DNA from: Thiorhodovibrio litoralis
GTDB lineage: Bacteria > Pseudomonadota > Gammaproteobacteria > Chromatiales > Chromatiaceae
Direction of reading: 5' to 3'
Assembly: GCF_033954455.1 (NCBI RefSeq)
Contig: NZ_CP121473.1
Span: 2,156,501 to 2,220,500 of the forward strand
DNA: 64,000 nucleotides
A program made the translations under genes and the position numbers. This document shows, piece after piece, positions 6,596 through 58,034 of the stretch. How positions within the stretch are numbered: position 1 is the first letter of the stretch; every line of letters starts with the position of its first letter. The notes below the pieces were generated by a model. It was not told where the DNA came from, did no database searches, and saw only the letters and a list, made by a program, of their open reading frames with translations.

Positions 6596-6689
6596 TGTTT
6601 TTTAGGCCGGTTTGTTTCGTGGCATTCCATCATGAACGAGACAAATCGCTGCGTTACATTTCCATCAGGATTGGATTTATTATTGCCGG

Positions 6690-7130: not shown

Positions 7131-7357
7131 CAACACAGTTTCAACCCATCGCTGAAGTGACCCAACGCGGAACGCGAATATTGATTCAGGAAATTGGTGT
7201 TGTTGACACCCTAAGGTTTCTCAATCAGTTTCGGGCAGGTTCTGGAAACTATACAGCGGATAGGCATGAGTTGTTTGAAGGTCTCACTGTGAAGGACATT
7301 GTCCGTGAGATCAAGGCTCAAAGAGAGCTCCGAGAGCTCCGGGGACAGTGTACTTAA
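7127..7357 (+). CDS. Small partner protein of the PIN toxin, probable antitoxin
   Basis: 76 residues, translated from TTG at 7127 within the stop of the PIN gene (TTGA overlap), with a good GGAGG ribosome site about 8 bases upstream (7115-7119). The sequence (EVTQRGTRILIQEIGVVDTL then RFLNQFRAGSGNYT) belongs to a small family repeatedly found next to PIN genes in cyanobacteria and purple bacteria. The antitoxin role is inferred from that linkage and from translational coupling; no DNA-binding motif is obvious. Confidence 0.7.
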   Translation: MTTQFQPIAEVTQRGTRILIQEIGVVDTLRFLNQFRAGSGNYTADRHELFEGLTVKDIVREIKAQRELRELRGQCT

Positions 7358-7382
7358 TTGCTTCCGGTCTGGAATTTAGACA

Positions 7383-7547
7383 TTTGGTGCCAAGCTCGAA
7401 TTTATTTCGCAAGTCAACCCACTCAAGCCACGGCACACGCCGATGCCGGTCAAACCCTATCGGGAGCCTCCCGCTGTCGAGGTGAATCGGTTAGACTCGC
7501 CTCATGAGCGGCAAGGCCCGGATGGCCAATAGCGGCACGCGGATAGG
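7383..7547 (+). repeat. Direct repeat R2 flanking the PIN cassette (downstream copy)
   Basis: Second copy of the ~160-bp repeat at 6434-6595. It leads directly into ATG 7556 of the intact Rpn-like gene, so it is the native leader of that gene. Confidence 0.85.
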
Positions 7548-7555
7548 GAACCCCG

Positions 7556-14020: not shown

Positions 14021-14135
14021 TCAGCCCACTCCACTGTCCGCGCCAAGTCTAGGGTAGCTCCCGAAAAGGCGGCTACACCTTCACCGCCCTGGCTTGGCCC
14101 CTCCCTCGAAGGTGCCCGCGTGAAGGTGCGTGACA

Positions 14136-41527: not shown

Positions 41528-41731
41528 TTACCCCTCAGTCTTGAACAGCAGCGCCCCGGAGCCGAGTTGCCACTGGTGATCGTCCTCCAGTTCCTGGTCG
41601 ATCAGCACCGCCCGGCAGGCGATCTCGTCAACCGAGAGCACCGAGACCGCGCTGTCATTGATCCAGTTGACCCCTTCGAGAAAACCGGCCAGTCGCGCCG
41701 GACAGTCCGCAGTGACTTCGATCATAGCCAT
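41528..41731 (-). CDS. Small acidic protein at the end of the recombination module
   Basis: 67 residues; its start overlaps the last base of radC. Sequence IEVTADCPARLAGFLEGVNW, then DEIACRAVLIDQELEDDHQW, ends GALLFKTEG. No family recognised. Acidic character and coupling to radC suggest an accessory of that protein. Confidence 0.65.
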   Translation of the reverse strand: MAMIEVTADCPARLAGFLEGVNWINDSAVSVLSVDEIACRAVLIDQELEDDHQWQLGSGALLFKTEG

Positions 41732-42264
41732 TACAGCTGTCCCTCCTGGGCCAGCGACAAGGCCCCTTCACCGCCGACGATGATGTGATCGAGCAGAGTG
41801 ATCTCGAACAAATCGAGGGCCTGACGGATACGCTGGGTTACGCGCAAATCCGCTGCGCTCGGGGTTGGGTCACCGCTTGGGTGATTATGAATCAGCAGGC
41901 ACGCGGCGCAATTCAACGCCAAGCCACGCTGCGCAATCACCCGGGGATGCACGCTACAGCCATCAATGGTGCCTTGGAAAACCTCCTCCAGCGCGATCAA
42001 GCGATGCTTGTTGTCAAGAAAGGCCACGGCGAAGACTTCGTTCGGTTTCCCGGCGAAGCGCAGTCGCATGAAGTCCATCGTGGTGGCGACATCGGTGAAG
42101 GTGTCGTAGGTCACCTTTGGCTCCAGCACCTGCAACGCCAAGGCGACCAGACTGCTCTGCTCATCGGGCGTCAAATCGGCCGCCAGCATCGCAGTGAAGC
42201 GATTGGCTTGTCGGCGTTGTTGCGTCAACCGCGATCGGGATAGTGAGTGATGGGATTGAGACAT
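41731..42264 (-). CDS. radC: RadC-family JAB/MPN metallo-domain protein
   Basis: 177 residues. The JAMM motif is intact in CLLIHNHPSGDPTPSAADLR (H-x-H-P-S-G-x7-D) after an upstream Glu in LIALEEVFQGTIDGCSVHPR. RadC homologues of this short form are typical of integrative elements and plasmids, often encoded near SSB and recombination genes; the chromosomal repair function once assigned to RadC is disputed. A structured leader (42287-42326) precedes the gene, with TGGAGGAA as ribosome site. Confidence 0.92.
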   Translation of the reverse strand: MSQSHHSLSRSRLTQQRRQANRFTAMLAADLTPDEQSSLVALALQVLEPKVTYDTFTDVATTMDFMRLRFAGKPNEVFAVAFLDNKHRLIALEEVFQGTIDGCSVHPRVIAQRGLALNCAACLLIHNHPSGDPTPSAADLRVTQRIRQALDLFEITLLDHIIVGGEGALSLAQEGQL

Positions 42265-42286
42265 GGCTGTTCCTCCAGCGAAACAC

Positions 42287-42326
42287 GGGGAAACAGCGCC
42301 CTTGAGGGACGCAGTCCCCCCAAGGG
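42287..42326 (-). promoter_or_regulatory. Repeated structured leader, copy before radC
   Basis: Minus strand: CCCTTG pairs with CAAGGG around an inner GGGAC-TGC-GTCCC helix; downstream CGC..TTTCCCC can pair back with the GGGGGA..GCG part. Same layout as the copies before the 77-residue gene, vwa, moxR, yqaJ and recT. The ribosome site lies about 14 bases after the last C-run. Confidence 0.65.
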
Positions 42327-42375
42327 ATGTGAAAATGGACTGTCGGCTGACAGTCCGGTGAATAATGGAGTGGCG

Positions 42376-43470
42376 CTAAGCCGCCAGACGCGATTGCGGC
42401 AGTGACTGTTGCCAGACATCCGCCCAATCAACACCGCGGGCATGCGGCGGAATCGGGACAAGCGGCAAGCGAATGCGCACCTCGACCGACGGACTCAACC
42501 GTCGCTGAAGCGCCCGTGCCGCCTGTTCGCCGACACCCGAGCGATCCTTGTCCGCCCAGACCACCAGCCGGCGAAGGCCAGACGGAGGCTGGAAGCGCTC
42601 CAGCAGGGTGGCCGACAGAGCGGCCCAGACCGGCATGCCTGTCATGGCGCGCACCGCCAGTGCGGTCTCGATGCCCTCGGCCAAGCCAAGTGTCGAGCCC
42701 TTTTCCCAGTCGACCGGGCACAACCGAACCGCCGAACCAACGAGCGAGCGGTTCTGTCCGGACGCCATCAGCTTCTTGGGCGCTGGCACCGGTGCTTTGG
42801 CCAAACCGTCAGGTCGCAGGTAAGTCCGATGCAGCGTCATGGCCGATCCATCCGCAGCGGACACCAAGGCCAGCATGGCCGGGAATCGTCCCAAACAGAC
42901 AGGGCGGCCATTCTCAGCGGCGCTCCAATAAGGCAGTTCCGGATGGAAACGGATCACCCGTGGATCAAAGTCAGCATCGCCAAGTCCGCGCAGGACCAGG
43001 TAACGCTGCATGACCTCTGATCCAGGATGGCCGGGCGGCAGGCTTTCATTCCACAAACGACGCAGCCGCGCCCGTGCTTGGTCGGGATGCTGCTCGCAAG
43101 CGCTCACGCGCACCCGTGGCCGAGCGATCAGGGTCGGCCTCCATGGCGACAATGTTTCGCCCGTCAGCCCCAAGACCCCAGCCACCCGGCTCAGTACCTC
43201 GGGAAAGGACCACCCAAACAGCCAGCGCAACAGCGCAAAGCCATCCGGATAAGGACCGCAGGTCGCGCAGATACCGCCGCCGGAGCGATCGACATCCGGA
43301 AACAACCGAAAGCCATCCCCCTGGCGTCCGCCATGAACAGGGCAGGGCACATGTCGCCCCGGTCGCTGCAAGGCCGCATCCAGCACAGGTCCAGCCAATT
43401 CGTTCAGAATCGTCTGCCACCCGACGCCTTGCACTGCCTGGCGAACAGTCGCCGATTCAATCGAACGCAT
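42376..43470 (-). CDS. Toprim primase-like protein with zinc-binding N-terminus
   Basis: 364 residues from ATG 43470. Zinc-binding start: RHVPCPVHGGRQGDGFRLF then GGGICATCGPYPDGFALLRW. Toprim core: STLGLAEGIETALAVRAMTG (Glu) and LRRLVVWADKDRSGVGEQAA (DxD type). This is the mobile-element primase/Toprim type rather than DnaG. Ends in PQSRLAA. Preceded by a strong hairpin (43491-43521). In the module it could prime or process DNA during element replication; activity is inference. Confidence 0.85.
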   Translation of the reverse strand: MRSIESATVRQAVQGVGWQTILNELAGPVLDAALQRPGRHVPCPVHGGRQGDGFRLFPDVDRSGGGICATCGPYPDGFALLRWLFGWSFPEVLSRVAGVLGLTGETLSPWRPTLIARPRVRVSACEQHPDQARARLRRLWNESLPPGHPGSEVMQRYLVLRGLGDADFDPRVIRFHPELPYWSAAENGRPVCLGRFPAMLALVSAADGSAMTLHRTYLRPDGLAKAPVPAPKKLMASGQNRSLVGSAVRLCPVDWEKGSTLGLAEGIETALAVRAMTGMPVWAALSATLLERFQPPSGLRRLVVWADKDRSGVGEQAARALQRRLSPSVEVRIRLPLVPIPPHARGVDWADVWQQSLPQSRLAA

Positions 43471-43490
43471 CGAAGTTCTCCAGTAACACA

Positions 43491-43521
43491 CGCCGGTGCT
43501 GGAAGATTCCAGACACCGGCG
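43491..43521 (-). promoter_or_regulatory. Long hairpin in the leader of the Toprim primase gene
   Basis: CGCCGGTG-CTGGAA then TTCCAG-CACCGGCG form a 14-bp stem with a single bulge and tiny loop, 20 bp before the start codon on the minus strand. It differs in sequence from the CCCC/GGGG leaders of neighbouring genes. Confidence 0.65.
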
Positions 43522-43564
43522 CAAGAGGCAGAAAGGACACCGCACGGCGAGCCATCAGGCTCGC

Positions 43565-43876
43565 TCAATGCACAACCGTCTCGGCATCCACCAACAGCTT
43601 GCAGATCGGGATCGCGCGTTCGCCGACCTCGACAAAGCGCAGCGGCTTGGAAATCACCCAGGCCGCGCGCAGCGCATCGAGCGCCCCGGCACTGGGACCG
43701 AAGTCCTTGATGGCGATCTCATTGGCATCCAGATCGACGCCGGGCAGTTCCACGCTCGCCACAGCGATCAAATCACCAGGCGAGCGGGCATTGACCAGCA
43801 ACAGCGCCGGTCGGCGGGATTGGGCATAGCGCGACCACAGCAACCGGCAGTCGTAGGTATTGAAGCGAAGCTTCAT
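43565..43876 (-). CDS. Small unknown protein of the recombination module
   Basis: 103 residues from ATG 43876 (CCGAGGAGCC upstream). Sequence LRFNTYDCRLLWSRYAQSRR, then LIAVASVELPGVDLDANEIA and WVISKPLRFVEVGERAIPIC, looks like a compact alpha/beta domain. Similar small proteins recur in this type of mobile-element module; function unknown. A hairpin (GCTGGC/GCCAGC with inner GGGC/GCCC, near 43907-43942) lies in its leader. Confidence 0.7.
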   Translation of the reverse strand: MKLRFNTYDCRLLWSRYAQSRRPALLLVNARSPGDLIAVASVELPGVDLDANEIAIKDFGPSAGALDALRAAWVISKPLRFVEVGERAIPICKLLVDAETVVH

Positions 43877-43960
43877 GCAGGGCTCCTCGGAATTGGAAAG
43901 AAACAGCAACGGCAGCTGGCCGGGCAAGAAGCCCAAGCCAGCCGAGGCGGGAACAAGCAA

Positions 43961-44194
43961 TCAGGCCAGAACAGCCTGATGCGTCATCGGGCTAGCGCGC
44001 CGCGCCAGCATCGCGCGGGTGCGCATCTCATCGAGCACCAAGCGGTACACCGCCTTGATGTCGCGATGGGTTGCGCGGTCGGCGGGTTCAGCGAGCAATG
44101 CAAACACCGACTGCTGGGCAGCCGTCAGTTGGCGCTCGCTCGCGGTATCGAGAAACTTCTCAACGTCATTCCAGAAATCACGGTTCATACTCAT
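43961..44194 (-). CDS. Small helical protein of the recombination module
   Basis: 77 residues from ATG 44194; TTGGGAGAT gives the ribosome site. Sequence NRDFWNDVEKFLDTASERQL, then LAEPADRATHRDIKAVYRLV, is helical. Preceded by the repeated structured leader (44215-44260). Ends THQAVLA. No family recognised. Confidence 0.65.
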   Translation of the reverse strand: MSMNRDFWNDVEKFLDTASERQLTAAQQSVFALLAEPADRATHRDIKAVYRLVLDEMRTRAMLARRASPMTHQAVLA

Positions 44195-44214
44195 GGCGGT
44201 ATCTCCCAAGGTGA

Positions 44215-44260
44215 GGGGGAGACACATCGCCCCTGTGGGGAGAGCATCTCCCCAAGGGGT
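44215..44260 (-). promoter_or_regulatory. Repeated structured leader, copy before the 77-residue gene
   Basis: Minus strand: outer CCCCT/AGGGG, inner GGGGAG-ATGCT-CTCCCC; a second, competing or pseudoknot pairing joins GGGGAGA to the downstream TCTCCCC. The ribosome site follows within 15 bases. Confidence 0.7.
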
Positions 44261-44261
44261 T

Positions 44262-44611
44262 GAACAAAGGTCCGCACCAAGGCGGTGTCATCGGACGCGG
44301 TTGAAAAGCCCAATCGGGCTGGCGACGCATCGCGTCTTCGGTCGCCGTCACAGCAAGTCCTGGCATCAGGACTCACCGCAAAACCGCCTTTTCCACTGCC
44401 GTTGGTGACCATGGCCAACGACACCGGAAAAGGCCCGGCCGCCGCGAGGCGGCCGGATCGGTTGAAGTGGATAGGATTGAACCAAGCCACTCGGATGCAC
44501 CGCAGCGCATCCGCACAGCCTGAACGAACGGGTGCCTTGAAGACACCACGAAAGGTCGCCCGCAACAGCGCCTTTTCAGACGCCGTCGCGGACAAGGGCA
44601 GGGCAGCGCGA
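44262..44611. other. 350-bp hairpin-dense non-coding stretch between the vwa gene and the 77-residue gene
   Basis: No supportable ORF, but many perfect stems in series: AGCCC-AATC-GGGCT, AGTCCTG-GCAT-CAGGACT, GTTGG..CCAAC, CCGGCCGCC-GCGA-GGCGGCCGG. The density suggests a structured transcript or processed spacer. Direction unknown. Confidence 0.5.
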
Positions 44612-46501
44612 TCAGGCCGCCAGCAACAACCGCTCGGCCGCACCAAAGAGCGCCGTTCTCAGCGCCGTCACCTCATCGACGCGCAACGCCACCGGGAACA
44701 ACCCCGAGACATCCACGCCGATGCCAAGCCCGACGGTTTCCAAACCGGCGGCGGAACAAAGCCGCAGAATCTCCCGCGTCTCATCCATGCGATTCGGCTT
44801 GCCGTCGGTCAGCAACAGCACAATGCGCCGCGTCTCAGGTCGGCCGAGCAAATCCGCCGCCGCGAACCACAACGCACCCGCCATCGGCGTGCTGCCCCGA
44901 GTCCCTTGCAAAAAGGCCCCGGCACAGGCACGCGGACGCTGCCCATGTCGAACCAGCACGCTGATGCGATCCTCCACGCCGGACAGGCCCGGAAAGGCGC
45001 TCACCGCGACCGACACCCCATGGATGCCGTCCAGTGCCAGGGCCAAGGCCAAAGCGGCGGACTGGGCGATCTGCCCACGCCGTTCAACCAACCCGTCGCG
45101 ACGACGCACTGGCGAGTTCATCGACCCAGACAGGTCGATGAGCAGGTGAATCGCGGTATCGACCGCCACCCGCTCGCGTTTCCGTGCGAACAGCCGAGGA
45201 TCGCCCACCGCCGCGCGATAGAGGCGCTTGGGCAGCAAGCGCGGCCCATGGCGAAACGCCTGCGGCCGATCCAGCCGTGAGGCCTGCACCAGTCCCTGTA
45301 AGCGTGCCCGCAACCGGCGCGACTCTTCCTGCACGACACCCAGCAACCGCAAACCACGCGCCGGATCGCCACCAAAAGGCTCCGCACGGGGCAGCAGACA
45401 AGGGCTGTCACCCTGGCCGGCGGCGTCCAGGAGCTCACGCACCTGCTGGAACAAATCGCCTGGCAGATCGTCATCGTTGGCGTTCAGCGCCTGGGAGACG
45501 GCTTGGGTCTTTCCGACGTCAGCCGGTGCGTCCGAGTTGAGCATTGGAAGATGCGTCGAGTCCGGCTTGGTTGAAGAAGCCGCACCGCCAGGACCAACCG
45601 ATGTCGTCCCGTCAGTCCCCTGTTTCTGTCCTTGTCCCTGTCCCTGTCCAGAGGGATGATCCCCAGCCGCGTTTCCTGGGCTTGATTGGCCAGCTGTCGG
45701 GTTTGTTGAACCCTGAGCATCTGGTGCGTTGGCGTCCGGATGTGTTCCGGTTGAACCACCATCCGATGTCGGGATATTCGTCCCCGCAGTGCCAGGCGCG
45801 TTTTGGCCAGCATGGCCCGGCTGATCAGGCTGATCGGCCCCGAACCCGGATGACGGCGCCCGCGCCGACAGCTTCTCCTCCTCCAGCAAGGCGCGAATGC
45901 GTTGCGCCAAATCGACCGCATCCGCCGTGCTGGCCAGCTGACCGACCTCGGCCAACAAGCCCTGCAACCGATGCACGGTGCGCGCAGGAAATACCTGACG
46001 CAGCACCCGCTCCGCCTCACGTGCCGGAGCAGCCAGCGACTCGGTGGCCAGCATCCGATGCCGCAGATGTAACAGCAGATAGCTGGTCAAGACATGGGCT
46101 GGATGCGCATCTGGCATCGGCGGCGACAAAGCACCGCGTCCGCTCAGATGGTCGCACACCGCCTGCAAGGTCTCGCGCGTGCCCGGATAAGGCGCGGCGA
46201 TGGCCCGCTCGATGCGGATATCCTCAAGAATGTTTAGCAGGCTGCGGGTCAAGGGATCTGAACCCGAACCCTGGCGATAGGCGTCAAAATCGGTAAAGCG
46301 CAGATGCGCCGCCTCGTGGGCCAGATAGCCCCAGGCAACGGGAATCAGCTCAGATTGCGGCGGCAAGGCCGGCACCTGAATGCTGTTGCCATCAGTGCAG
46401 GCCTCATCTCCGCCGACCGCGACCGGGACGCCAAACTTGCGTCCTAGGGCGGCGGCGACAATCGGCATGGCCTGATGCAAGGTCCGAAAGGCATGGCTCA
46501 T
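44612..46501 (-). CDS. VWA-domain protein with N-terminal metallopeptidase-like motif
   Basis: 629 residues. The N-terminal part has WGYLAHEAAHLRFTDFDAYR with an HEAAH zinc-protease-type motif (62-66), as in VWA-like putative metallopeptidases. A Gly/Gln/Asn-rich linker spans roughly 220-320. The C-terminal von Willebrand A domain has the MIDAS residues DLSGS (456-460), a Thr in RGSTPMAGAL and Asp566 in LLLTDGKPNRMDE. VWA proteins of this size pair with MoxR AAA+ ATPases as chaperones (CobT/CobS, NorD/NorQ); a moxR-type gene is encoded three genes upstream. Preceded by the repeated leader (46523-46560). Ends ERLLLAA. Confidence 0.88.
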   Translation of the reverse strand: MSHAFRTLHQAMPIVAAALGRKFGVPVAVGGDEACTDGNSIQVPALPPQSELIPVAWGYLAHEAAHLRFTDFDAYRQGSGSDPLTRSLLNILEDIRIERAIAAPYPGTRETLQAVCDHLSGRGALSPPMPDAHPAHVLTSYLLLHLRHRMLATESLAAPAREAERVLRQVFPARTVHRLQGLLAEVGQLASTADAVDLAQRIRALLEEEKLSARAPSSGFGADQPDQPGHAGQNAPGTAGTNIPTSDGGSTGTHPDANAPDAQGSTNPTAGQSSPGNAAGDHPSGQGQGQGQKQGTDGTTSVGPGGAASSTKPDSTHLPMLNSDAPADVGKTQAVSQALNANDDDLPGDLFQQVRELLDAAGQGDSPCLLPRAEPFGGDPARGLRLLGVVQEESRRLRARLQGLVQASRLDRPQAFRHGPRLLPKRLYRAAVGDPRLFARKRERVAVDTAIHLLIDLSGSMNSPVRRRDGLVERRGQIAQSAALALALALDGIHGVSVAVSAFPGLSGVEDRISVLVRHGQRPRACAGAFLQGTRGSTPMAGALWFAAADLLGRPETRRIVLLLTDGKPNRMDETREILRLCSAAGLETVGLGIGVDVSGLFPVALRVDEVTALRTALFGAAERLLLAA

Positions 46502-46522
46502 GGTGATGCTCCAATAGGTGAT

Positions 46523-46560
46523 GGGGCATCACGCCCCTGGGGGCGCAATGCCCCGAGGGG
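46523..46560 (-). promoter_or_regulatory. Repeated structured leader, copy before the VWA gene
   Basis: Minus strand: CCCCT-C-GGGG, loop CATTGCG, CCCC-C-AGGGG; the loop pairs with downstream CGTGATG (two wobble pairs), extending through GGGGCAT/ATGCCCC. TTGGAG ribosome site follows. Confidence 0.75.
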
Positions 46561-46633
46561 TGAAAAAAAGAAATCCGCCAATCAGCGTCGTCGATCCAGA
46601 TTGAAGTGACGCTAAGACCGAATCAGAACCAAA

Positions 46634-47719
46634 TCAGAACCAGAAGTCTTGGGCCGGTGCCGCCGGAACCGGCGGCTGTGGTGTCTCGATCGGACCCGGC
46701 ACTTCCTGCTCCTCGAACAGGTCATCGAAGTCCATTGGGTCGTCGGGCAAAGCTTCCGCGTCCGTTGACGCTGAGTTCGCGTCATCTTCTTGCTGGACGG
46801 CATCGCCAACGTCCGCGTCTGACCGGGGCTCTGGCAGTTCCGCCATCAACGCATCCAGCGCCAACAGCCCTTCGCCATGGCGGGCCATCGCTTCGGCCTC
46901 GCCAACCAGACGCATCAGCGCCCAGCCCTCCAGGAACAATCCGCCCCGGATCGGCCCCGAGCCGGGCAGTCGCTTCAGCCACTGCCCGATAGAGCGCACG
47001 ACCGGATCAATCCGTCCATCGACAAAGCTCAACGCATCGAGTTTGTCGTGAATGCGCCGGAAGGTGCCGAGAGCCCGTTGCGAGAGTTCCGGCTTGCCCA
47101 GAAAGGATTGCTCCAGCCCGCGCGCCATCTGTTCGACCTCGGCGAAAATGGTGTCACCGATCTCGGCGACATCCTCGTGCAAGGTATCGGTGGCGATCAG
47201 CGGCGCTGTTTCAATCCGCAGCGCCTGCACCCGAAAGCGGAACTGCCCGCGCACCACCTCCACCGGATCAACCGCCTGGCGGATGGCCGGCTCCCAGCCG
47301 GGATAAGCCGCGCACCAGGCATCGATATGGCGGTCGTAGTCGGCGAGGAAGGTCTCGGCTTCGGCGCGCGTCTCCAGGGTGATAGCCTCGGCCATCGCCT
47401 GCGCCTCGACCGCCAGCGCATTGGGCACCAGAAAGCCGCCCAGAAAGCGCGTGCCGACCGCCAACAGATTGCGCTCAATGCGCTTCTTGTTGCGGTGAAA
47501 CACCCGCAAGGCATCCGGGTTGCAAATCTTCTTGCTGCCCAATGAAATCAGTTCATCGGGCGGCAAGTCGGTGCCCAAGCGCAGATCCTCGGCACGCAGT
47601 TTCTTGCGCCCGGACCAGATGTGAAAATCGACCAGAAAGAGCGTGGTCTGATCGGTCAGATGAAGGGTATCCTCCAGGGACCGGTTGTCGTTTTGGGTCT
47701 CGGTCATGTCAGTTGTCAT
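46634..47719 (-). CDS. DUF3150-family protein
   Basis: 361 residues from ATG 47719. The N-terminal two thirds match DUF3150: TTLFLVDFHIWSGRKKLRAE, GSKKICNPDALRVFHRNKKR, AEAETFLADYDRHIDAWCAA, with long helices. The C-terminus is acidic and Pro-rich and ends AAPAQDFWF. DUF3150 genes recur in mobile elements next to MoxR/VWA and recombination genes; molecular function is unknown. The 47-bp gap before it holds a GC-rich hairpin (CGCGGA/TCCGCG with inner CGGCC/GGCCG). Confidence 0.85.
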   Translation of the reverse strand: MTTDMTETQNDNRSLEDTLHLTDQTTLFLVDFHIWSGRKKLRAEDLRLGTDLPPDELISLGSKKICNPDALRVFHRNKKRIERNLLAVGTRFLGGFLVPNALAVEAQAMAEAITLETRAEAETFLADYDRHIDAWCAAYPGWEPAIRQAVDPVEVVRGQFRFRVQALRIETAPLIATDTLHEDVAEIGDTIFAEVEQMARGLEQSFLGKPELSQRALGTFRRIHDKLDALSFVDGRIDPVVRSIGQWLKRLPGSGPIRGGLFLEGWALMRLVGEAEAMARHGEGLLALDALMAELPEPRSDADVGDAVQQEDDANSASTDAEALPDDPMDFDDLFEEQEVPGPIETPQPPVPAAPAQDFWF

Positions 47720-47766
47720 GCAAGTCTCCCCGCGGACCGGCCAGGCCGATCCGCGTCGTGGATGGT

Positions 47767-48129
47767 TCAGAACCAGAGGTTCTCCTGCCCCGGCGCGATC
47801 CACGACAGATCGATGCGGGGTTGGTGGCTTGGCTCGGGAACGGGCTGGTGGTGCAACGCGGCGCGCTGGGTCGAGACGATCTCAAAGACGCGCCCACGCA
47901 GGACGGCCTGACCCAAAGGGACATAGCCTTTGCGTTCCTTCTCCCGTGCACGTTGCTCAATCAGCGCGCGTTGGTCCGCGCGATAGTGCTGCTGTTGGCC
48001 AATGTGGCCCGAACGCCCCCAGGCAATCTCCATCGCGCCATCGGCCAGGCGGCGATAGGCCCAGTCTTTGCTCGCCCCATCGCCGTGGTGATAGCGAAAG
48101 AGTTGCCAGGGCGAATCCGTCATCGTCAT
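47767..48129 (-). CDS. WGR-domain-like protein
   Basis: 120 residues from ATG 48129, which overlaps the moxR stop (ATGA). The first ~65 residues (QLFRYHHGDGASKDWAYRRL, then MEIAWGRSGHIGQQQHY) carry the W-G-R core of a WGR nucleic-acid-binding domain. The rest is basic and helical, ending APGQENLWF. Coupled translation with the AAA+ gene suggests direct partnership. Confidence 0.75.
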   Translation of the reverse strand: MTMTDSPWQLFRYHHGDGASKDWAYRRLADGAMEIAWGRSGHIGQQQHYRADQRALIEQRAREKERKGYVPLGQAVLRGRVFEIVSTQRAALHHQPVPEPSHQPRIDLSWIAPGQENLWF

Positions 48130-49088
48130 GCCTGCCCGCTCCACAGCGGCCCCAGCACATCGGCGGCGATGCGATGAATCGCCGTGCGTTCTTCCGCCGC
48201 CGCTCGCGCGGTCAGCGCCTGATCCAAGGCATAGGCCAGCGGATTCGGCGCCCCCTTGAAGGTCACCGTTAGCCGTGCCCAACGCACCAGAGTGCGAGTG
48301 GACAGCGTCAGGGTTAGCTCACCGCCTTGGGGATTAGCGCCGTCGCTCTCGCCGAGAAACAGCCGCCGCACCTCATTGGCCACCACGACCAGCTTGTGGG
48401 CGATCTCGGTGGGGAGGTCGGGCACCTCGCCATCCAAAACGGCGTGCTCAGTTTCCGGGTCCGGGTAGTTCACCTGCAGCACCCGGAAGCGATCCAGGAA
48501 CGCCAGGTTCTGCCGCAGCACACCCTGATAGAGTCCGGTCTGATCCCCGCCGCCGGCACTGTTGCCGGTGGCGATCACCCGGAACTTCGGATGCGGGCGA
48601 ATCACCTCACCGCCGTTCTGGGCAATCACCAGGGGCGCGCCCTCGACGATGTCGTTCAGCCCGGCCAGCTCGGCCGGGTCCATCAGATCGATTTCGTTCA
48701 GGATCAGCAGATGCCCCTCGCGCGCGGCGAGGGCCAAAGGACCATAGACGAAACGCGTCTCGCCCTGGAGCAACTGAAAGCCGCCGAGCAGATCGGCGAA
48801 TTCCATGCGGCCATGGCAGGTCAACTCCTGCACTGGCCAATACAGCCGCGCAGCGACTTGGCGGATCAGCGAAGTCTTGCCCGCGCCGGTCGGGCCGGTC
48901 AGCAACAAGGCATCGCCGCCGGCATCGCGCAGAAACGCCAGCACGGCATTGAGCCCCTGGCGAAAGATGTAGGGCTGCCTGAGCGGAACCTTGGGATGGT
49001 CCGCTTCCGCGAAGCCTTCGATCTCCAGGCCTTTCGGGGCCTTGACGTTAAAGGTGGTCGCGACATCGAAGCGTTGGGGTGTGGGCAT
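48126..49088 (-). CDS. MoxR-type AAA+ ATPase (CbbQ/NorQ/CobS-like)
   Basis: 320 residues from ATG 49088. Walker A LLTGPTGAGKTSLIRQVAAR, Walker B GHLLILNEIDLMDPAELAGL, sensor FRVIATGNSAGGGDQTGLYQ, and the C-terminal lid LSTRTLVRWARLTVTFKGA. MoxR enzymes with VWA partners remodel metalloproteins or protein complexes; a VWA gene is in the same operon. The repeated leader at 49108-49152 precedes it, with CAGGAGAG as ribosome site. Confidence 0.92.
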   Translation of the reverse strand: MPTPQRFDVATTFNVKAPKGLEIEGFAEADHPKVPLRQPYIFRQGLNAVLAFLRDAGGDALLLTGPTGAGKTSLIRQVAARLYWPVQELTCHGRMEFADLLGGFQLLQGETRFVYGPLALAAREGHLLILNEIDLMDPAELAGLNDIVEGAPLVIAQNGGEVIRPHPKFRVIATGNSAGGGDQTGLYQGVLRQNLAFLDRFRVLQVNYPDPETEHAVLDGEVPDLPTEIAHKLVVVANEVRRLFLGESDGANPQGGELTLTLSTRTLVRWARLTVTFKGAPNPLAYALDQALTARAAAEERTAIHRIAADVLGPLWSGQA

Positions 49089-49107
49089 GGGTCTCTCCTG
49101 TGTGATC

Positions 49108-49152
49108 GGGGAGAGACGCGAATCCCCAAGAGGGAGCGATCTCCCCCTGGGG
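49108..49152 (-). promoter_or_regulatory. Repeated structured leader, copy before the MoxR gene
   Basis: Minus strand: CCCCA/TGGGG outer stem, GGGA/TCCC inner stem, and a second pairing of GGGGAGA..CGC with downstream GCG..TCTCCCC. Same topology as the other five copies. Confidence 0.75.
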
Positions 49153-49153
49153 T

Positions 49154-49326
49154 GAGTGAACAGGCCAACGGGCCAGCAATAACGAAAGGTCGGGTCTTGT
49201 GAGGCGCTCCGACAGGCGCACAGGGAAAACCGATGCGGTCGTCCGAAACCGCGCACGCGGGGCTTTGGACGACCGCCTGCCCGAAGGCAGGACGGTCTGG
49301 AGGTTAAGTGAGAAACAACACGGGCA
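49154..49326. other. Structured non-coding stretch between moxR leader and yqaJ
   Basis: Contains a 10-bp perfect stem GCGGTCGTCC/GGACGACCGC (with inner CCGCG/GCGG), a CCTGCC-CGAA-GGCAGG hairpin with a tetraloop, and GGCC..GGCC pairs. No ORF I would accept. Comparable with the hairpin-rich gap at 44262-44611. Confidence 0.5.
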
Positions 49327-50361
49327 TCAGAACCAGAAGCTGGTGGCCACGGCAAAACCGTGGTCATCGGTGGCCTGATGCGCAGGTTCGCGATTAGCCT
49401 TGGGCTTCAGCGGGATCACAGTGGTTGCGGGCGGTTCCTGCACCGTGACCCGCACGCGCTCGGACGGCTGACGGCGAAACGCCTCGATGGCGTCGCGACC
49501 CAACTCCGGCAGGCGCGCCTGCAACAGCGCCGGATAATCGACTGAGCCCTTGGCGCAGAAGCGCGTGACGCGCAACCCGGCGGACTCGGCAATCAGCGTC
49601 TGGCCCATCATGGCGACCAGGGTGGTCTGGATGTCATCCAGCGCTGCTTTTTTGCGCTTTAACTCAGCTTCGACCGTTTTGGCTTCCTGCTGGAGCGCGC
49701 GATAACGTCCCGCCAGCACCGCCCAGTCATCAGCCTGCGGCCCCTTGGGGATGAACAAATCCCGCTGCGGGTCTTTCTCCGGCTCGCGCTCCTCGACCAA
49801 CGCCCGCCAGAAGGCTTTTCCCTGGGTGACGATGGATGTAATCAACGCCGGATCGCGAGTGATCTCGAAAACGATAGGGTCATTGTCCTCTTGGTAAAAC
49901 ACCAGGTACCCCTTGTCCGCTCCAGCGACATAGAGCTGATGCTGGACCTGGGGTTCATAGAGCCGAAAGGCGCTGGCCGCGCGGCCATGTTCCGCTACAT
50001 CGCGCAAGGTGCGTTCCGAGGGCACCTTCAACTCCACCGGTTCGCCGGCGTCGGTGATGCCATCAAAGGAGGCGCGCAACAGCGGTTCCTCCTCGGATTC
50101 ACCACAGACCGGCAAGACCAGCGTGTCGTAACGCTGCTCGAACCACTGCCGGGCGGCATCTTCCAGTCGGTTGCCCCGCTGCACCAGCGGGTTCTTGCTC
50201 AAGTCCGCAGTCTTGGCCAACCCCGTGCGTTCGGCCCACAGACGCCAGGGCGTCTTGTAGGGCGAGCGACCCAAAATAATGGCCGATTCCGAGGCGGTGA
50301 TGCCCTGGGCGCGCCACTGGTGCCATTCCGGGGTGCGTTGGGCCAGATCAATCGTTTTCAT
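49327..50361 (-). CDS. YqaJ-family viral-type recombinase/exonuclease
   Basis: 344 residues from ATG 50361 (GACGGAGC upstream). Core: QRTPEWHQWRAQGITASESA, VQRGNRLEDAARQWFEQRY, ASFDGITDAGEPVELKVPSE with the D...E-x-K triad, and YEPQVQHQLYVAGADKGYLV (Q-x-Q-x-Q-like). This is a lambda-exonuclease-fold 5'-3' exonuclease that pairs with a RecT-type annealase, encoded immediately upstream. C-terminal coiled helix (YRALQQEAKTVEAELKRKKA) and the end FAVATSFWF. Confidence 0.92.
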   Translation of the reverse strand: MKTIDLAQRTPEWHQWRAQGITASESAIILGRSPYKTPWRLWAERTGLAKTADLSKNPLVQRGNRLEDAARQWFEQRYDTLVLPVCGESEEEPLLRASFDGITDAGEPVELKVPSERTLRDVAEHGRAASAFRLYEPQVQHQLYVAGADKGYLVFYQEDNDPIVFEITRDPALITSIVTQGKAFWRALVEEREPEKDPQRDLFIPKGPQADDWAVLAGRYRALQQEAKTVEAELKRKKAALDDIQTTLVAMMGQTLIAESAGLRVTRFCAKGSVDYPALLQARLPELGRDAIEAFRRQPSERVRVTVQEPPATTVIPLKPKANREPAHQATDDHGFAVATSFWF

Positions 50362-50382
50362 GGAAAGCTCCGTCAAAAAGAC

Positions 50383-50420
50383 CGAGGCATCCTGCCCCTC
50401 GGGGCAGACGCCCCGTGGGG
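50383..50420 (-). promoter_or_regulatory. Repeated structured leader, copy before yqaJ
   Basis: Minus strand: CCCC-A-CGGGGC, loop GTCT, GCCCCG-A-GGGG; downstream GGCAG and GATGCCTC can pair with the loop side (GGGGCGTC/GATGCCTC with wobbles). A run of T follows before the GGAG ribosome site. Confidence 0.75.
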
Positions 50421-50448
50421 TGAAGAAAATTGGCTGTACTCGCTAAAC

Positions 50449-51447
50449 TCAGGCCGCCAGGCGTTGCTCGGCGGCATGTTTCGCCTGATCGAGAGCCTTG
50501 AGGGCCTGTGCCAAGTCAGACGCCTTGCAGCGCGCCCGCAAATACTGTTCGGCCTGCTTCCAGGCAGACTTCTCCGCCGCGCGGGCGACCACCTTGTCGA
50601 TCCGGGCTTGCAGGCTGGGATCGAGGGTGAGGGGATCAGCGGTTGGTTCTGCGTCCGACGGTGATTCCGATCCGCTCGCTGACGCCTGTTCCGCGCATTC
50701 CGCAGCAACAACGGACAGCGCAGTCTCCGCTTTGTCGGGGACAGCCTTTGTCGTATCCAGCGACGCGGCGACCGGAATGGAGGTATCCGCCTCGATCACC
50801 TTGCCTTCCATCTCCTCGGCGGTATAAGAGGCTTCCTCGGGAAAAGCTGCGCGCAGAGAAGCCGCCTTGGCGCACTTCATCAACTGCCCGCGCGGGCGTT
50901 TGACCCACATCTCGGTCGGCAACTCTGAATAGGCCCCGCCCTGACGGGCATAGGCTTCCAGCCAGAACACCGGCTCGGTGAAGGGACAGCGCTGGCCGCC
51001 GACAAGCCGATAGACGGTCACCTCGCACCACTCGGGAAAGCTGACCGCATAGTCCAAGTCCTGCCAAGCGCCATTGCGTTTGACCTTCCCCGAGAAGGTG
51101 CGCTCGATCACCGGGCCGAAGCGCGGCGGATCTATCCCAGCCCACTGGCCGGTGCGCGCGGCCGTGGTCTGCACCTCGGCAATACCCGGCCAGACGGTCT
51201 CGATCTCTTGACCAAGTGCCTTCGACCACATCGGCACCACATGCACCGGACGCTTGATCACGTCCAGATTGCGCGCGGCGCAGTAATGGACCGCCAGCAG
51301 AATGCCCTCGGCGGTCTTGGCTGCCGGGAAAATGGAATCGGTCAGCACCTTCCAAGTGCTGGGAGTCAGATTCAGCGCCGGATCGACCGCCGGCATCGGG
51401 ATGCGCGGCGCGTCGGCTTTTGGCACAGCGTGCATCGAACGGGTCAT
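50449..51447 (-). CDS. RecT/Bet-family single-strand annealing protein
   Basis: 332 residues from ATG 51447 (GAGGAGGG ribosome site). Bet/RecT core: LAVHYCAARNLDVIKRPVHV, WPGIAEVQTTAARTGQWAGI, CPFTEPVFWLEAYARQGG, and RGQLMKCAKAASLRAAFPEE. It anneals complementary single strands in concert with the exonuclease encoded downstream. An acidic/Ala-rich tail of ~100 residues ends HAAEQRLAA. The strongest copy of the repeated leader precedes it (51467-51505). Confidence 0.92.
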   Translation of the reverse strand: MTRSMHAVPKADAPRIPMPAVDPALNLTPSTWKVLTDSIFPAAKTAEGILLAVHYCAARNLDVIKRPVHVVPMWSKALGQEIETVWPGIAEVQTTAARTGQWAGIDPPRFGPVIERTFSGKVKRNGAWQDLDYAVSFPEWCEVTVYRLVGGQRCPFTEPVFWLEAYARQGGAYSELPTEMWVKRPRGQLMKCAKAASLRAAFPEEASYTAEEMEGKVIEADTSIPVAASLDTTKAVPDKAETALSVVAAECAEQASASGSESPSDAEPTADPLTLDPSLQARIDKVVARAAEKSAWKQAEQYLRARCKASDLAQALKALDQAKHAAEQRLAA

Positions 51448-51466
51448 GATGCCCTCCTCAATGAAT

Positions 51467-51505
51467 GGGGCACCAGGCCCCACGGGGTTACTGGTACCCC
51501 GTGGG
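51467..51505 (-). promoter_or_regulatory. Repeated structured leader, copy before recT
   Basis: Perfect 10-bp stem CCCACGGGGT/ACCCCGTGGG with a 7-base loop containing ACCAG; downstream CTGGT is complementary to the loop, and the whole CTGGTGCCCC can instead pair with GGGGTACCAG. GAGGAGG follows 8 bases later. Confidence 0.8.
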
Positions 51506-51526
51506 TGGAAAGAGAAAGCACTCGGC

Positions 51527-51715
51527 TCAGCGCGCGAGCTGCTCGAGTTGTTGCGCCAGTCGCGTCAACCGCTCGGGCTGACCGGCCGGTGTTGACCCTA
51601 GCTCGGCGCGTTGGCGCAGCCGTTGGGCCATCAGCGATAGCTCGCGGCACGCCCAGCGTCGGGTGGCGCCGACGCGGATTGGTCTCGGATTCTCCGGCTC
51701 AAAACGGCAGGTCAT
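51527..51715 (-). CDS. Small basic protein overlapping the ssb 3' end
   Basis: 62 residues from ATG 51715, inside the last codons of ssb in another frame. Sequence [20 protein letters not shown], then [15 protein letters not shown], is basic and helical. No family recognised; kept because it fills the gap before recT and the overlap is typical of this operon. Confidence 0.5.
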
Positions 51716-52097
51716 CGTCGAAATCCGCCTTGGATGTCGGTGCTTTCTGACGACTGCCAGCGGAACCATTCTTGCCGCCAAGCATTTTCATCTTGTCAGC
51801 GACGATCTCGGTGGTGTAGCGGTCCTGGCCGGATTCATCCTGCCATTGACGGGTCTGCAAGCGGCCTTCGACATAGACCAGCGCACCCTTGTTCAGGTAC
51901 TCGCCGGCCACTTCCGCCGTGCGCCCGAACAGCACCACGCGGTGCCACTCGGTGCGTTCCTGCGCTTCACCGGCCTTGTCTTTCCAGCGCTCGCTGGTGG
52001 CGAGGGTCAGATTGGCGACGGCACCCTGGCCGTTCTTGGCTTGACGGACCTCGGGATCGCGCCCGAGATGGCCGATCAGTTGGGCTTTGTTCAGCAT
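51699..52097 (-). CDS. ssb: Single-stranded DNA-binding protein
   Basis: 132 residues from ATG 52097. OB fold: [80 protein letters not shown]. The short linker ends in DFDDDLPF, the conserved acidic tip that recruits repair proteins. Mobile-element SSBs of this size usually travel with RecT/exonuclease pairs, as here. Confidence 0.96.
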
Positions 52098-52099
52098 GA

Positions 52100-52270
52100 T
52101 CACTCTCCAGGTTGGGATGACAACGAACGCCGACGCTGATAGGTCGGCGACTCCAAGGGATGCGGTTCCGGCGGCGGCAGTGGCGCGACACGCGCGCCGA
52201 GTAGCCTGTCGCTCAGCTGCCAGAACAGCACCTTCCAGCGGCGGGGAATCCGCCACGGACGTGAGAACAT
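52100..52270 (-). CDS. 56-residue basic protein upstream of ssb
   Basis: From ATG 52270 with AGGAG six bases upstream, ending 2 bp before the ssb start. Sequence [20 protein letters not shown], then [19 protein letters not shown], is basic with a Pro-rich tail. First gene of the module; no family recognised. Confidence 0.55.
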
Positions 52271-54919: not shown

Positions 54920-56377
54920 ATGTCCGATGACAACGGCCTCGGTGATCCCGATGGTTGGGCGCGGTTGCGCTTTGCCATTATTGGTCCTTTATTGGCTGAT
55001 CCTGCGCCGGCGAACGCGCTGGGCGCGCGGCTGAAGGCGCTAGCGGCCAAGTCATGGCGCCATCCGGTGACTGGGCGGGCGGTCAGTTTTAGCTTTGGCA
55101 CCTTGGAGCGTTGGTATTACCTCGCACGCGATGCCCAAGACCCGGTGGCGGCACTGCGCCCGCGCCGGCGCAGCGATGCCGGGGAGCAGCGCGCGCTGAG
55201 TCCGCGCCTGATGGATGCGGTGCAAGCCCAGTACCGCGACTACCCCGGTTGGACGGTGCAGCTGCATTACGACAACCTCGCCGCCTTGTGCGCGGGCGAT
55301 CAGACCCTGGGGCCGCTGCCCTCCTATGCCACCGTGCGCCGCTTCATGAAGCGCGCGGGCTTGCACCGCCGGCGTGTCCCGGCGCGCAAGACGCCGGGCG
55401 CTGAACAGGCCGCGCGGCGCCTGGAGGCCTGCGAGGTGCGCAGCTATGAAGCCCAGTATGTCCATGCCTTGTGGCATCTGGACTTTCATCATGGCTCGCG
55501 CAAAGTCCTCACCCGGGGTGGCGTCTGGGTCAAGCCCCTGCTGCTGGCGGTCATTGACGATCACTCCCGCCTGATCTGCCATCTGCAGTGGTACCTCGAT
55601 GAGACCACCGAGACCTTGGTCCATGGCCTGGGGCAGGCGTTGCACAAGCGCGGGCTGCCGCGCGCCTTGATGAGCGATAACGGCGCGGCAATGCAGGCCG
55701 AGGAGTTCACCGCCGGATTGCACGCCCTGGGCATCCTCCATGAGCCGACCCTGCCGTACAGCCCGTATCAGAACGCCAAGCAGGAGCGCTTCTGGGCCAC
55801 GCTGGAAGGCCGCCTGATGGCGATGCTTAAGGGGCTGGAGGAGCTGAGCCTGCAGCGGCTCAACACCCTCACTCAGGCGTGGGTGGAGCAGGAGTACCAC
55901 CGCAAGGTCCACAGTGAGACCGCCGCCACGCCGCTTGCGCGTCTTCTCGATGCGCCCAACGTGGGGCGCCCCTGTCCGGACAGCGAGCAGGTCCGCGCCG
56001 CTTTTCGTTGTCGCGTCCAACGCCGTCAGCGCCGCAGCGATGGGACGCTCAGCCTGGCGGGCAAGCGCTTCGAGGTGCCGGCGCGCTTGCGTCACCTTGA
56101 GCAACTGCATATCGCTTATGCCCGCTGGGATCTGAGTGCTGTGGACGTGGTTGATCCCCACTCGGGCGCCATCCTCTGCCGCCTCTATCCCCTCGATAAA
56201 GCCGCCAATGCCTCCGGGCAGCGTCGGCGCCTTGAGCCCGCCGGCGCACCGCCACCGCCATCACAACGCGCCACGACGCTGCCACCGTTGCTGCGCGACT
56301 TGCTCGCCGAGTATGCCGCCACCGGTCTGCCGCCGGCCTATCTGCCAAAACACGATGACCTGGAATCCAGTCGATGA
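54920..56377 (+). CDS. D-35-E transposase of the transposon (copy 2)
   Basis: 485 residues, identical to copy 1 (Asp188, Asp253, Glu289). Starts 93 bp after the zinc-ribbon gene, with GGGAGGTGAAG just before ATG as ribosome site. Identity of both copies implies very recent transposition or gene conversion. Confidence 0.92.
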   Translation: MSDDNGLGDPDGWARLRFAIIGPLLADPAPANALGARLKALAAKSWRHPVTGRAVSFSFGTLERWYYLARDAQDPVAALRPRRRSDAGEQRALSPRLMDAVQAQYRDYPGWTVQLHYDNLAALCAGDQTLGPLPSYATVRRFMKRAGLHRRRVPARKTPGAEQAARRLEACEVRSYEAQYVHALWHLDFHHGSRKVLTRGGVWVKPLLLAVIDDHSRLICHLQWYLDETTETLVHGLGQALHKRGLPRALMSDNGAAMQAEEFTAGLHALGILHEPTLPYSPYQNAKQERFWATLEGRLMAMLKGLEELSLQRLNTLTQAWVEQEYHRKVHSETAATPLARLLDAPNVGRPCPDSEQVRAAFRCRVQRRQRRSDGTLSLAGKRFEVPARLRHLEQLHIAYARWDLSAVDVVDPHSGAILCRLYPLDKAANASGQRRRLEPAGAPPPPSQRATTLPPLLRDLLAEYAATGLPPAYLPKHDDLESSR

Positions 56378-57225
56378 ACAAGACCCTGCTGGCCCTCTAT
56401 GGACTGAAGTTCAATCCGTTCTCCCCGGAGCTGCCGACGGCGGCACTGCATCGCAGCGCGCCGGTGGAGCAGTTTTGCTGGCGCATCGAGCAGAGCCTGA
56501 TCCGCGAAGGCGGTTTTGCGCTCATTCAAGGTGATCCGGGTACCGGCAAGAGTGCGGTACTGCGCCTGCTCGATGAGCGTCTGCGCCAGCTGCCCGATAT
56601 CAGCGTTGGGGCGCTCACGCATCCCAGCTCGAAGGTGGCGGACTTCTACCGCGAGATGGGCGATCTGTTCGCCGTTGACCTCAAGCCCCATAACCGCTGG
56701 GGTGGCTTCAAGATCCTGCGCGAGCGCTGGCTGGCGCATCTGGAGACGACGCTGTTGCGCCCGGTGTTGCTCATCGACGAGGCGCAGGAGATGCATCCGA
56801 CGGTGCTCAATGAGCTGCGTCTGCTGACCTCCATGCAGTTCGATTCGCGCACGTTGTTGAGCGTGATCCTGGCCGGCGATGGCCGCCTGGCGACCAAGCT
56901 GCGCCGTGAGGAGTTGCTGCCGCTGGGCAGTCGTATCCGTACGCGCCTGAGTATGGAGTATGCCAGTCGCGAGGCGCTGGTCGCCTGCCTGGAGCATTTA
57001 CAACACAGTGCCGGCAATGCGAGTCTGATGAGCGCAGGGCTGATGAAGACGCTCGCTGAGCATGCGTTGGGCAATTATCGCGTGCTTACGACCATGGCGG
57101 CAGAATTGCTGGCGCAGGCTGCTCGGCTCGAACGCGCGCAGCTCGATGAACAACTCTACCTTGAGGTGTTTGGTTCAGCGGCGGGCAACGCCCGCCAACG
57201 CCCGAGTGCCAGGGCGGGCGCCTGA
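56374..57225 (+). CDS. ExeA/TniB-like AAA+ ATPase of the transposon (copy 2)
   Basis: 283 residues, identical to copy 1. ATGA overlap with the transposase stop. Walker A GDPGTGKS and Walker B LLIDEAQ intact, so target-selection ATPase activity is expected to be retained. Confidence 0.88.
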   Translation: MNKTLLALYGLKFNPFSPELPTAALHRSAPVEQFCWRIEQSLIREGGFALIQGDPGTGKSAVLRLLDERLRQLPDISVGALTHPSSKVADFYREMGDLFAVDLKPHNRWGGFKILRERWLAHLETTLLRPVLLIDEAQEMHPTVLNELRLLTSMQFDSRTLLSVILAGDGRLATKLRREELLPLGSRIRTRLSMEYASREALVACLEHLQHSAGNASLMSAGLMKTLAEHALGNYRVLTTMAAELLAQAARLERAQLDEQLYLEVFGSAAGNARQRPSARAGA

Positions 57226-58034
57226 TGAGCCGCTTGAGCGCTGAGCGCCCGCACCAGGCCATGACAGCGGCAAGACACACCGCCGTGATGCTTGAGGCAT
57301 GGCACGACGCTGGCATCGTGCGTGCCGATTTGGCGGTGCGCACCGCCAAGGCGACGATGCTGTGGTTCCATGATCGCTCTTTGGATCAGCTTCCGTTGGG
57401 GCTGGCCAGAGCGCGCAATGTCCAACAGGCCGATATTTATATCCGTCCAGCCCGCGGCTATCCCTGGCCAATGGTGTTTCTCGATGATGTCGCACGGCCG
57501 ATGGCGCAGCGCATCGCTCGGCACTATGCGGCCCTGGTGGTGCAGACTTCGACGCTCGGGGGCTGCCACCTGTGGCTACGGCTGACCCGCGCGCTCGATG
57601 AGGCGCAGCGCTGTGATGTGCAGCGTTGGCTGATCCCGCGCGTTGGCGCCGATCCGGGCTCGGTCTCCGGTGAGCACCTCGGTCGGCTCGCCGGGATGAA
57701 GAATGCCAAGCGTGGCGGGGAGTGGGTCAATGTCCTTCGGCGACCAAGCCCGCAGGAGCGCGTCTGGGATCCAACTCCGGCCTTGCCAACGATGGCTCCG
57801 GCTCCGCCGCCAGTCGTCAACTGCGCTCCACGGGCGCGCTTATCCACCGGGGATCCGTCCGAATCCGCCCGCGAATGGGGCTGGGTCTGCGGCGCTCTTG
57901 AGGCGGGCCTTGCACCGACCACGGTCTACCAGCGCTTGCTCGAGCGCGCGTCCCCGCGTCGCGGAGCCGATGCCGAGCGCTATGCCCGCTACACCCTCGC
58001 TCGCGCCATTCGCCAGAGCGCTAGAGGCAACTGA
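57225..58034 (+). CDS. RepB-family primase-like protein of the transposon (copy 2)
   Basis: 269 residues, identical to copy 1; starts within the ATPase stop (TGATG). Preservation of an uninterrupted frame in both copies argues that the gene is a working part of the element rather than a captured fragment. Primase motifs as listed for copy 1. Confidence 0.75.
   Translation: MSRLSAERPHQAMTAARHTAVMLEAWHDAGIVRADLAVRTAKATMLWFHDRSLDQLPLGLARARNVQQADIYIRPARGYPWPMVFLDDVARPMAQRIARHYAALVVQTSTLGGCHLWLRLTRALDEAQRCDVQRWLIPRVGADPGSVSGEHLGRLAGMKNAKRGGEWVNVLRRPSPQERVWDPTPALPTMAPAPPPVVNCAPRARLSTGDPSESAREWGWVCGALEAGLAPTTVYQRLLERASPRRGADAERYARYTLARAIRQSARGN

Follow-up and report, generated by a model that had tools for sequence, protein, structure and literature searches.

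Six genes of a single mobile-element operon of Thiorhodovibrio litoralis, located on the minus strand of a 64,000-nucleotide stretch of its genome (contig NZ_CP121473.1, positions 2,156,501 to 2,220,500; the whole of it is hereafter referred to as the window), are each preceded by a leader of 65–72 nucleotides (nt) with a common layout. The genes are recT, yqaJ, moxR, the gene of a CobT-like VWA protein, a gene encoding 77 amino acids (aa), and radC. In these leaders a segment, X′, is complementary both to an upstream segment, X, carried by a hairpin, and to a downstream segment, Z, formed by the Shine–Dalgarno (SD) sequence and the spacer. Since the X:X′ and the X′:Z helices use the same X′ nucleotides, they are mutually exclusive, and one of them covers the SD sequence, as expected for a two-state attenuator. 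The leaders are probably cis-acting translational attenuators, each of them tailored to its own gene. Their anatomy, the mutual exclusivity of the helices, the covariation, the tie to the start codons, the reiteration, and the distribution can all be read from the sequence.

Anatomy of the Leaders

All six leaders were located at the genes named in a preliminary description of this DNA, and the alternation of CCC and GGG reported there was read directly in the sequence. The full order is A/T-CCC-stem-GGG-X-CCC-stem-GGG-X′-CCC-spacer-SD-ATG, with CTC in place of the last CCC in the yqaJ leader. The first hairpin (hp1) is built around X, and X′ lies shortly 3′ of it. The loop complementarities that had been listed (ACCAG/CTGGT, CATTGCG/CGTGATG, the latter with two G-U pairs, and GGGGAGA/TCTCCCC) are also all present; the pairing of X′ with the SD region, which provides a mechanism, had been overlooked. 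The leaders are reported below, together with their scores against a covariance model (R1; 68 positions, built from 38 leaders), and are followed by the genes that they precede.

51445..51509, minus strand, recT leader: hp1 51479–51505, loop 51488–51496; X 51491–51500; X′ 51467–51476; Z 51448–51454; 3′ end at the recT ATG; 45.1 bits; minimum free energy (MFE) fold with X′ on Z
50359..50424, minus strand, yqaJ leader: hp1 50395–50420; X 50406–50414; X′ 50384–50392; 37.3 bits
49086..49156, minus strand, moxR leader: hp1 49124–49152; X 49140–49146; X′ 49108–49117; Z 49091–49098 (8 base pairs (bp) with X′); 48.1 bits
46499..46564, minus strand, leader of the VWA (CobT-like) gene: hp1 46534–46560; X 46544–46554; X′ 46523–46533; Z 46503–46512; 50.5 bits
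44192..44263, minus strand, leader of the 77-aa gene: hp1 44230–44259; X 44244–44253; X′ 44216–44225; Z 44199–44207; 53.1 bits
42262..42330, minus strand, radC leader: hp1 42299–42326; X 42311–42321; X′ 42287–42297; Z 42266–42276; 42.9 bits
50449..51447, minus strand, recT/bet (RecT family; PF03837, E 8e-17)
49327..50361, minus strand, yqaJ (lambda-exonuclease-like; PF09588, E 7e-26)
48126..49088, minus strand, moxR-like AAA+ ATPase gene (PF07728/PF08406)
44612..46501, minus strand, gene of the CobT-like VWA protein (PF06213, E 5e-11)
43961..44194, minus strand, 77-aa gene (no Pfam family)
41731..42264, minus strand, radC (JAB domain; PF04002, E 6e-40)

In the MFE folds, X′ is paired with the SD region in the recT, moxR, VWA, 77-aa, and radC leaders. 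The yqaJ leader, the weakest of the six, contains an SD hairpin (CTCGGTC/GACGGAG, 50368–50386) with one mismatch. The tie to translation that had been proposed is supported; the six leaders end at the start codons of their genes.

Segment Matching and Covariation

In the six leaders alone, whose X segments were delimited by hand, only one other of the 720 possible assignments of X′ reaches the true X:X′ total, and none reaches the X′:Z total. The same matching was assessed on 117 hairpins, taken from the window as well as from loci related to it and picked by hp1 alone (123 picks, 120 after the removal of duplicates, 117 after the removal of those with a short D). Some of these hairpins are not leaders, and the set is diluted to the extent that its ten picks in the window correspond to five true leaders (yqaJ being missed) and five other hairpins. 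The mean helix score of X:X′ was 15.95 for the own segments vs. 11.44 for segments swapped within the same element (standard deviation (sd) 0.17, maximum of 200 permutations 11.90; z 26.6), and that of X′:Z was 17.21 vs. 13.23 (sd 0.23, 200 permutations; z 17.0). The same X′ nucleotides enter both helices in 71/117 cases, vs. 24.6 (sd 2.9) after swapping.

A comparable picture is obtained from the leaders found with the model, reduced from 150 to 145 (duplicate segments), then to 143 (short segments), and finally to the 141 having at least two partners in the same element. Even when X is restricted to its loop, the own X′ is the best or tied partner in 70 of these 141 leaders (19 expected; p 2e-16 by rank); for Z, 72/141 leaders have their own X′ as the best or a tied partner (19 expected), on an alignment that was fitted to X′:Z.

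The RNAalifold analysis of a MAFFT alignment (A1) returned only six pairs. A sequence alignment is unable to register the leader; for this reason, descriptor permutations and the covariance model, with a structure written by the authors, were used. The descriptor scan yielded 141 matches over 24 sources totaling 559,815 bases, vs. 12 in one dinucleotide-shuffled copy. The structure line of R1 leans to hp1 and X′:Z, and X:X′ beyond the GGG was left out of it.

The preliminary description regarded an absence of covariation in a larger alignment as fatal to the idea of a structured leader. On 148 distinct rows the covariation is present. The score for X:X′ outside the GGG, to which the alignment was not fitted, is 0.278 vs. 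0.192 (sd 0.014) in shuffled and at most 0.166 in slid controls, and that for hp1 and X′:Z is 0.223 vs. 0.143 (sd 0.006) and at most 0.090, respectively. A second X:X′ register gives 0.212 vs. 0.167 (sd 0.013) shuffled, with a slid control that reaches 0.213. The rows are related, so that the shuffles overstate the significance; the slid controls and the within-element swaps are less affected. Together with the swaps, these scores support the earlier claim that the loop differs from gene to gene and yet covaries with a downstream segment. The conservation of the first hairpin is supported; its outer CCC/GGG is nearly invariant over 150 leaders (C 141–150/150; G 128–149/150).

Predicted Folding and Proposed Mechanism

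The mean accessibility of the SD core is 0.209 in the leaders (n = 148) vs. 0.333 in control genes of the same loci (n = 171). Energies were computed for 88 of the 141 descriptor matches. The state comprising hp1 and X′:Z (state A) is the more stable one in 67/88 leaders, with an advantage that averages 4.4 kcal/mol across the 88; in a transcript that has not yet reached Z, the stability of X:X′ equals or exceeds that of hp1 in 66/88. Taken together, the computed stability of state A, that of X:X′ before Z, and the low accessibility of the SD core led us to propose a default-OFF translational attenuator with an anti-sequestering segment.

According to this model, X′ would combine an anti-SD sequence with an extension specific to the gene, and X, made up of the GGG and the loop of hp1, would copy Z as a decoy. 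As long as the RNA is at rest, hp1 would be closed on itself and X′ would lie on Z, shutting the ribosome site; once hp1 is opened, or as long as Z is still untranscribed, X′ would instead pair with X, leaving the ribosome site open. The six leaders would be OFF by default and share a single polycistronic mRNA, with hp1 acting as the switch through its timing or its melting. X, X′, and Z appear to be re-tailored gene by gene, which might avoid cross-pairing between neighboring leaders on the same mRNA.

Either a pseudoknot or a two-state switch had been put forward previously. The two-state part stands, in that X:X′ and X′:Z are exclusive; a canonical pseudoknot on an intact hp1 is doubtful. 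In a pseudoknot, the connecting loops must span the stems; X′ starts no more than 5 nt after hp1 in 78/88 leaders (in 29 of these it overlaps the end of hp1), and hp1 is about 9 bp long. X′ is so near hp1 that X:X′ is unlikely to form on the full hairpin, an H-type pseudoknot being sterically doubtful. It is likelier that X:X′ requires the outer CCC/GGG to be melted, or hp1 to be replaced by a longer GGG-X:X′-CCC hairpin.

A coupling to the stop codon of the upstream gene was also considered and rejected. In 145/150 leaders, an upstream open reading frame (ORF) of at least 60 codons terminates inside the 260 nt examined, at distances (0 to 246 nt) having no common value, and a stop codon stands directly before hp1 in 8 of the 77 plasmid and integrative and conjugative element (ICE) leaders. 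Neither a ligand nor a protein, a leader peptide, or an antisense RNA emerged as the trigger, the last two not having been searched systematically.

Competing helices that hide or free an SD sequence are the basis of the erm/cat-type translational attenuators, and in the repZ pseudoknot of IncI plasmids the pairing of a loop with a downstream sequence activates translation. The leaders resemble these systems in the competition of helices over the SD sequence and differ from them in having numerous tailored copies within a single gene block and a variable distance to the upstream stop.

Distribution of the Leader

In the 5.47-Mb genome to which the window belongs, R1 (150 of 455 candidate places scored) finds exactly the six leaders, the next match having an E-value of 2.5. 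In eight plasmid and ICE records, 107 matches were found at E 0.01 or better: 26 in the IncC plasmid pR148, 8 in pR997 (which we take to be an SXT-type element), 16 in an Alcaligenes plasmid, 22 in the Aeromonas plasmid pAhD4-1, 14 in Edwardsiella, 12 and 8 in Methylomonas, and one, marginal, in the Allochromatium plasmid pALVIN02. The 26 matches of pR148 are confined to 27 kb of the 166-kb plasmid and to one of its strands, in a block with 36 listed plus-strand genes (the gene table is possibly incomplete); 23 of them end exactly at listed starts and two more in frame within 24 nt. One pR148 leader (locus L050, 3114–3180) precedes a 30-aa ORF, with its start codon at 3178, that is absent from the gene table.

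At the genome level, a match at E 0.001 or better occurs in 26/369 genomes of the same class, and in a phylum-wide sample 14/398 genomes have a match, 12 of them belonging to the same class; the genome under study is included in each of these counts, which are lower bounds since about 12–13 candidates were scored per genome in both samples. The genes found behind leaders elsewhere include those of a DUF6094 methyltransferase, an SNF2-type helicase, DUF4942, MoxR, and CobT-like VWA proteins (Pfam match in 7/10 proteins). A search of the genome contigs with the VWA protein returned two distant loci only.

Locus L099 (G308:C1:1-12000) harbors eight consecutive leaders that have one X/X′ core in common, in contrast to other elements, where X is tailored; either this set was recently amplified or it is without orthogonality. 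In another genome (G332, contig C2), three R1 matches (1502750, 3136388, and 3491156) have the identical score of 42.9 bits, perhaps reflecting a multi-copy element. A phage origin was rejected, the pattern scan of viral contigs giving eight stretches, below the roughly 20 estimated by hand for chance.

The leader also stands at the place of a reported regulatory structure. In the portion of the review PMC4542580 considered here, work of 2013 (Garriss et al.) is said to have placed a translational attenuator, repressing at the level of translation, upstream of bet in SXT, and also in IncA/C plasmids. The bet leader of the SXT-type element (L052, 12244–12310), which ends at the bet ATG at 12308, matches R1 with E 8.5e-4, and that of the IncC plasmid (L050, 6287–6367) with E 1.8e-5; as reported for the SXT attenuator, the position is directly upstream of the gene, and one of the window copies precedes recT/bet. 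In that portion of PMC4542580 the attenuator concerns bet only, whereas the leader described here precedes many genes in many elements and has a three-segment X/X′/Z design. The leaders probably make up a family of reiterated attenuators, fitted to individual genes and carried by conjugative elements and their mobile relatives; one of their positions is that of the SXT bet attenuator. In the literature searched, which left subscription papers mostly outside its scope, no description of reiterated leaders of this kind was recognized.

Drug resistance is carried by IncC plasmids and SXT/R391 elements, both of them intensively studied; nonetheless, pR148 has 26 copies of an RNA element that went unrecognized by Rfam in the 21.8 kb of this plasmid that were scanned. 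If the proposed mechanism is true, the block of recombination and establishment genes would be gated gene by gene at translation, which studies of transcription (SetCD, AcaCD) would have missed. The leaders would also offer a natural set of more than 100 tailored, apparently orthogonal switches for the study of folding competition.

Relation to the radC RNA and to Other Families

The radC RNA generally precedes radC and similar genes. Like the leader, this RNA (RF01754; Weinberg et al. 2010, PMC2864571) lies upstream of mobile-element genes in the genomes in which it was found; unlike the leader, it has another sequence and structure, of 149 positions. The suggestion that the six leaders could be divergent members of this family did not hold. 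RF01754 has no match in the window (cmscan, E up to 1) or in the rest of the genome, and in the eight records, with 1 to 26 leaders each, it has only two scores, 13 and 12.3 bits, below the cut-off of 40; the conserved CCCAGGC core and the hairpins of the radC RNA are absent from the window, according to the same whole-window cmscan.

As a positive control, 15 true radC RNAs were found in six genomes of the samples of 369 and 398. In 10/15 of these, an R1 match starts 7–25 nt downstream of the radC RNA, on the same strand, and in one at 128 nt; in genome G346, the end of one radC RNA model match overlaps the hp1 of a leader copy. A leader therefore follows or overlaps the radC RNA in 12/15 cases, two of them weak (L117, E 0.019; L130, E 0.056); of the remaining three, one has a leader that looks degenerate by eye and two have none. 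The radC RNA is a separate module of about 149 nt in front of the leader and not the family to which the leader belongs; for this orphan RNA, the leader may represent an expression platform. The 16-kb stretch that holds the radC RNAs and the leaders of G346 also contains a Group II intron D1-D4-3 match (38.8 bits), at L102 3403–3473 on the minus strand.

Among the other families, STAXI (RF01728) shares with the leader a pseudoknot-like structure that is reiterated and located close to ssb, antirestriction, and integrase genes, and differs from it in being repeated in tandem at one place, often with UUCG loops (PMC2864571). No Rfam match to STAXI was found in the window (E up to 1), in L050 (E up to 5), or in L049, L051, L052, and L055 (gathering threshold). 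In the sequences scanned, Rfam 15 does not recognize the leader, with the only exception of the G346 match mentioned above.

Alternative Explanations

Several observations weigh against a two-state attenuator. The switching is predicted from sequence and computed folds. Some copies are degenerate, among them the yqaJ leader, a plain X′:Z hairpin being absent from its MFE fold, and the 77-aa leader is computed to be more stable in state B. The joint X:X′ and X′:Z criterion fails in 46/117 hairpins; 43.5% of the X:X′ cells are unpaired in the better fixed register, and single pairs of the fitted X′:Z helix are often broken (53.6% and 58.2% of the cells paired in helices 3 and 4, respectively). 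Moreover, the 88 energy-tested leaders were pre-selected for complementarity, and neither pseudoknots nor kinetics enter into the energies. Some homologous operons lack convincing leaders: the descriptor found a single one in L042 and none at all in L044 or L048. Finally, the SXT attenuator is a candidate relative, linked to the leader structure by the bet position and the R1 match.

The alternative that survives best, even if it appears unlikely, is that a plain X′:Z hairpin sequesters the SD sequence and hp1 is a separate protein-binding site, X resembling Z only through GGRG and no switch being involved. X′:Z alone would account for the low SD accessibility, and the near-invariance of the outer CCC/GGG of hp1 is what a protein site would show; nevertheless, the part of X beyond the GGG matches the X′ of the same leader (the rank test with p 2e-16) and covaries with it. 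It is very improbable that the leaders attenuate transcription, with X:X′ as the stem of an intrinsic terminator before a U-run and hp1 as the antiterminator. A TTTT does lie between X′ and the SD sequence in 43/150 leaders (8/10 in L051, 8/11 in L049, and 5/7 in L054), but it is missing in 107/150 and present in only one of the six window leaders, and a terminator would leave the match between Z and X′ unexplained.

An element acting at the DNA level, e.g., a single-stranded hairpin promoter used at conjugative entry or a REP-like repeat, would fit the location near ssb and recombination genes of conjugative elements. This explanation is hardly credible, as both the position before start codons and the complementarity to the SD region are maintained from copy to copy, the loops vary, and the copies lie mostly on one strand of the gene block. 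REP-like repeats in particular, to which the preliminary description had pointed as a competing possibility, are disfavored by the set distance to the start codons; such repeats would be independent of start codons and occur as near-identical copies in both orientations, unlike the leaders. That the leaders are divergent radC RNAs is practically discounted by the lack of a match in the genome, the sub-threshold scores in the eight records, and the separateness of the real radC RNA module, in spite of the same gene types and the one overlap with hp1 in G346.

The translational attenuator might be part of a wider scheme, which we advance tentatively, as it is rather doubtful in its entirety. In conjugative elements of the IncC, SXT/R391, and related types, most genes of a long accessory operon might each have an orthogonal switch of this sort responding to a common cue, which might act on the nearly invariant parts of hp1 or operate as a co-transcriptional timer, so that protein synthesis would occur only in a burst, for example during the first transcription of the operon. 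In a subset of these elements the radC RNA might act as a sensor module, with the leader as its expression platform.

The Operon and Other Features of the Window

According to Pfam, the operon encodes SSB, RecT, YqaJ, MoxR-like AAA, DUF3150, CobT-like VWA, Toprim primase-like, and RadC proteins; no Pfam family was matched by the 77-, 103-, 67-, and 119-aa products. A convincing leader was not seen before ssb, the 119-aa gene, the DUF3150 gene, the 103-aa gene, the toprim gene, and the last gene of the operon. Other strong hairpins, without a canonical leader, occur on the minus strand just 5′ of the DUF3150 gene (47720–47830), the toprim gene (43471–43560), and the 103-aa gene (43877–43960). 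In some other elements, a canonical leader is present before the homologues of the DUF3150 and toprim genes.

Three ORFs, of 485, 283, and 269 aa, occur twice with the same sizes and in inverted orientation, one set at 16219–19333 (minus strand) and the other at 54920–58034 (plus strand). The 485-aa proteins of the two sets have identical Pfam rve scores, and a compared stretch of 115 bases is identical; the two sets are likely the same insertion sequence, inverted and flanking the operon region. The descriptor matches at 55435 (plus strand) and 18817 (minus strand) fall in the coding sequence shared by these sets, lack the CCC/GGG frame, and are not reported by R1, and were thus taken as chance. 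At 6067–8425, there are direct repeats (179, 176, and 78 nt) with a spacing of about 1–2 kb. The only cmscan match in the window is an int-alpA RNA (RF02996) at 14042–14112 on the plus strand, whose score of 57.2 bits is above the gathering score.

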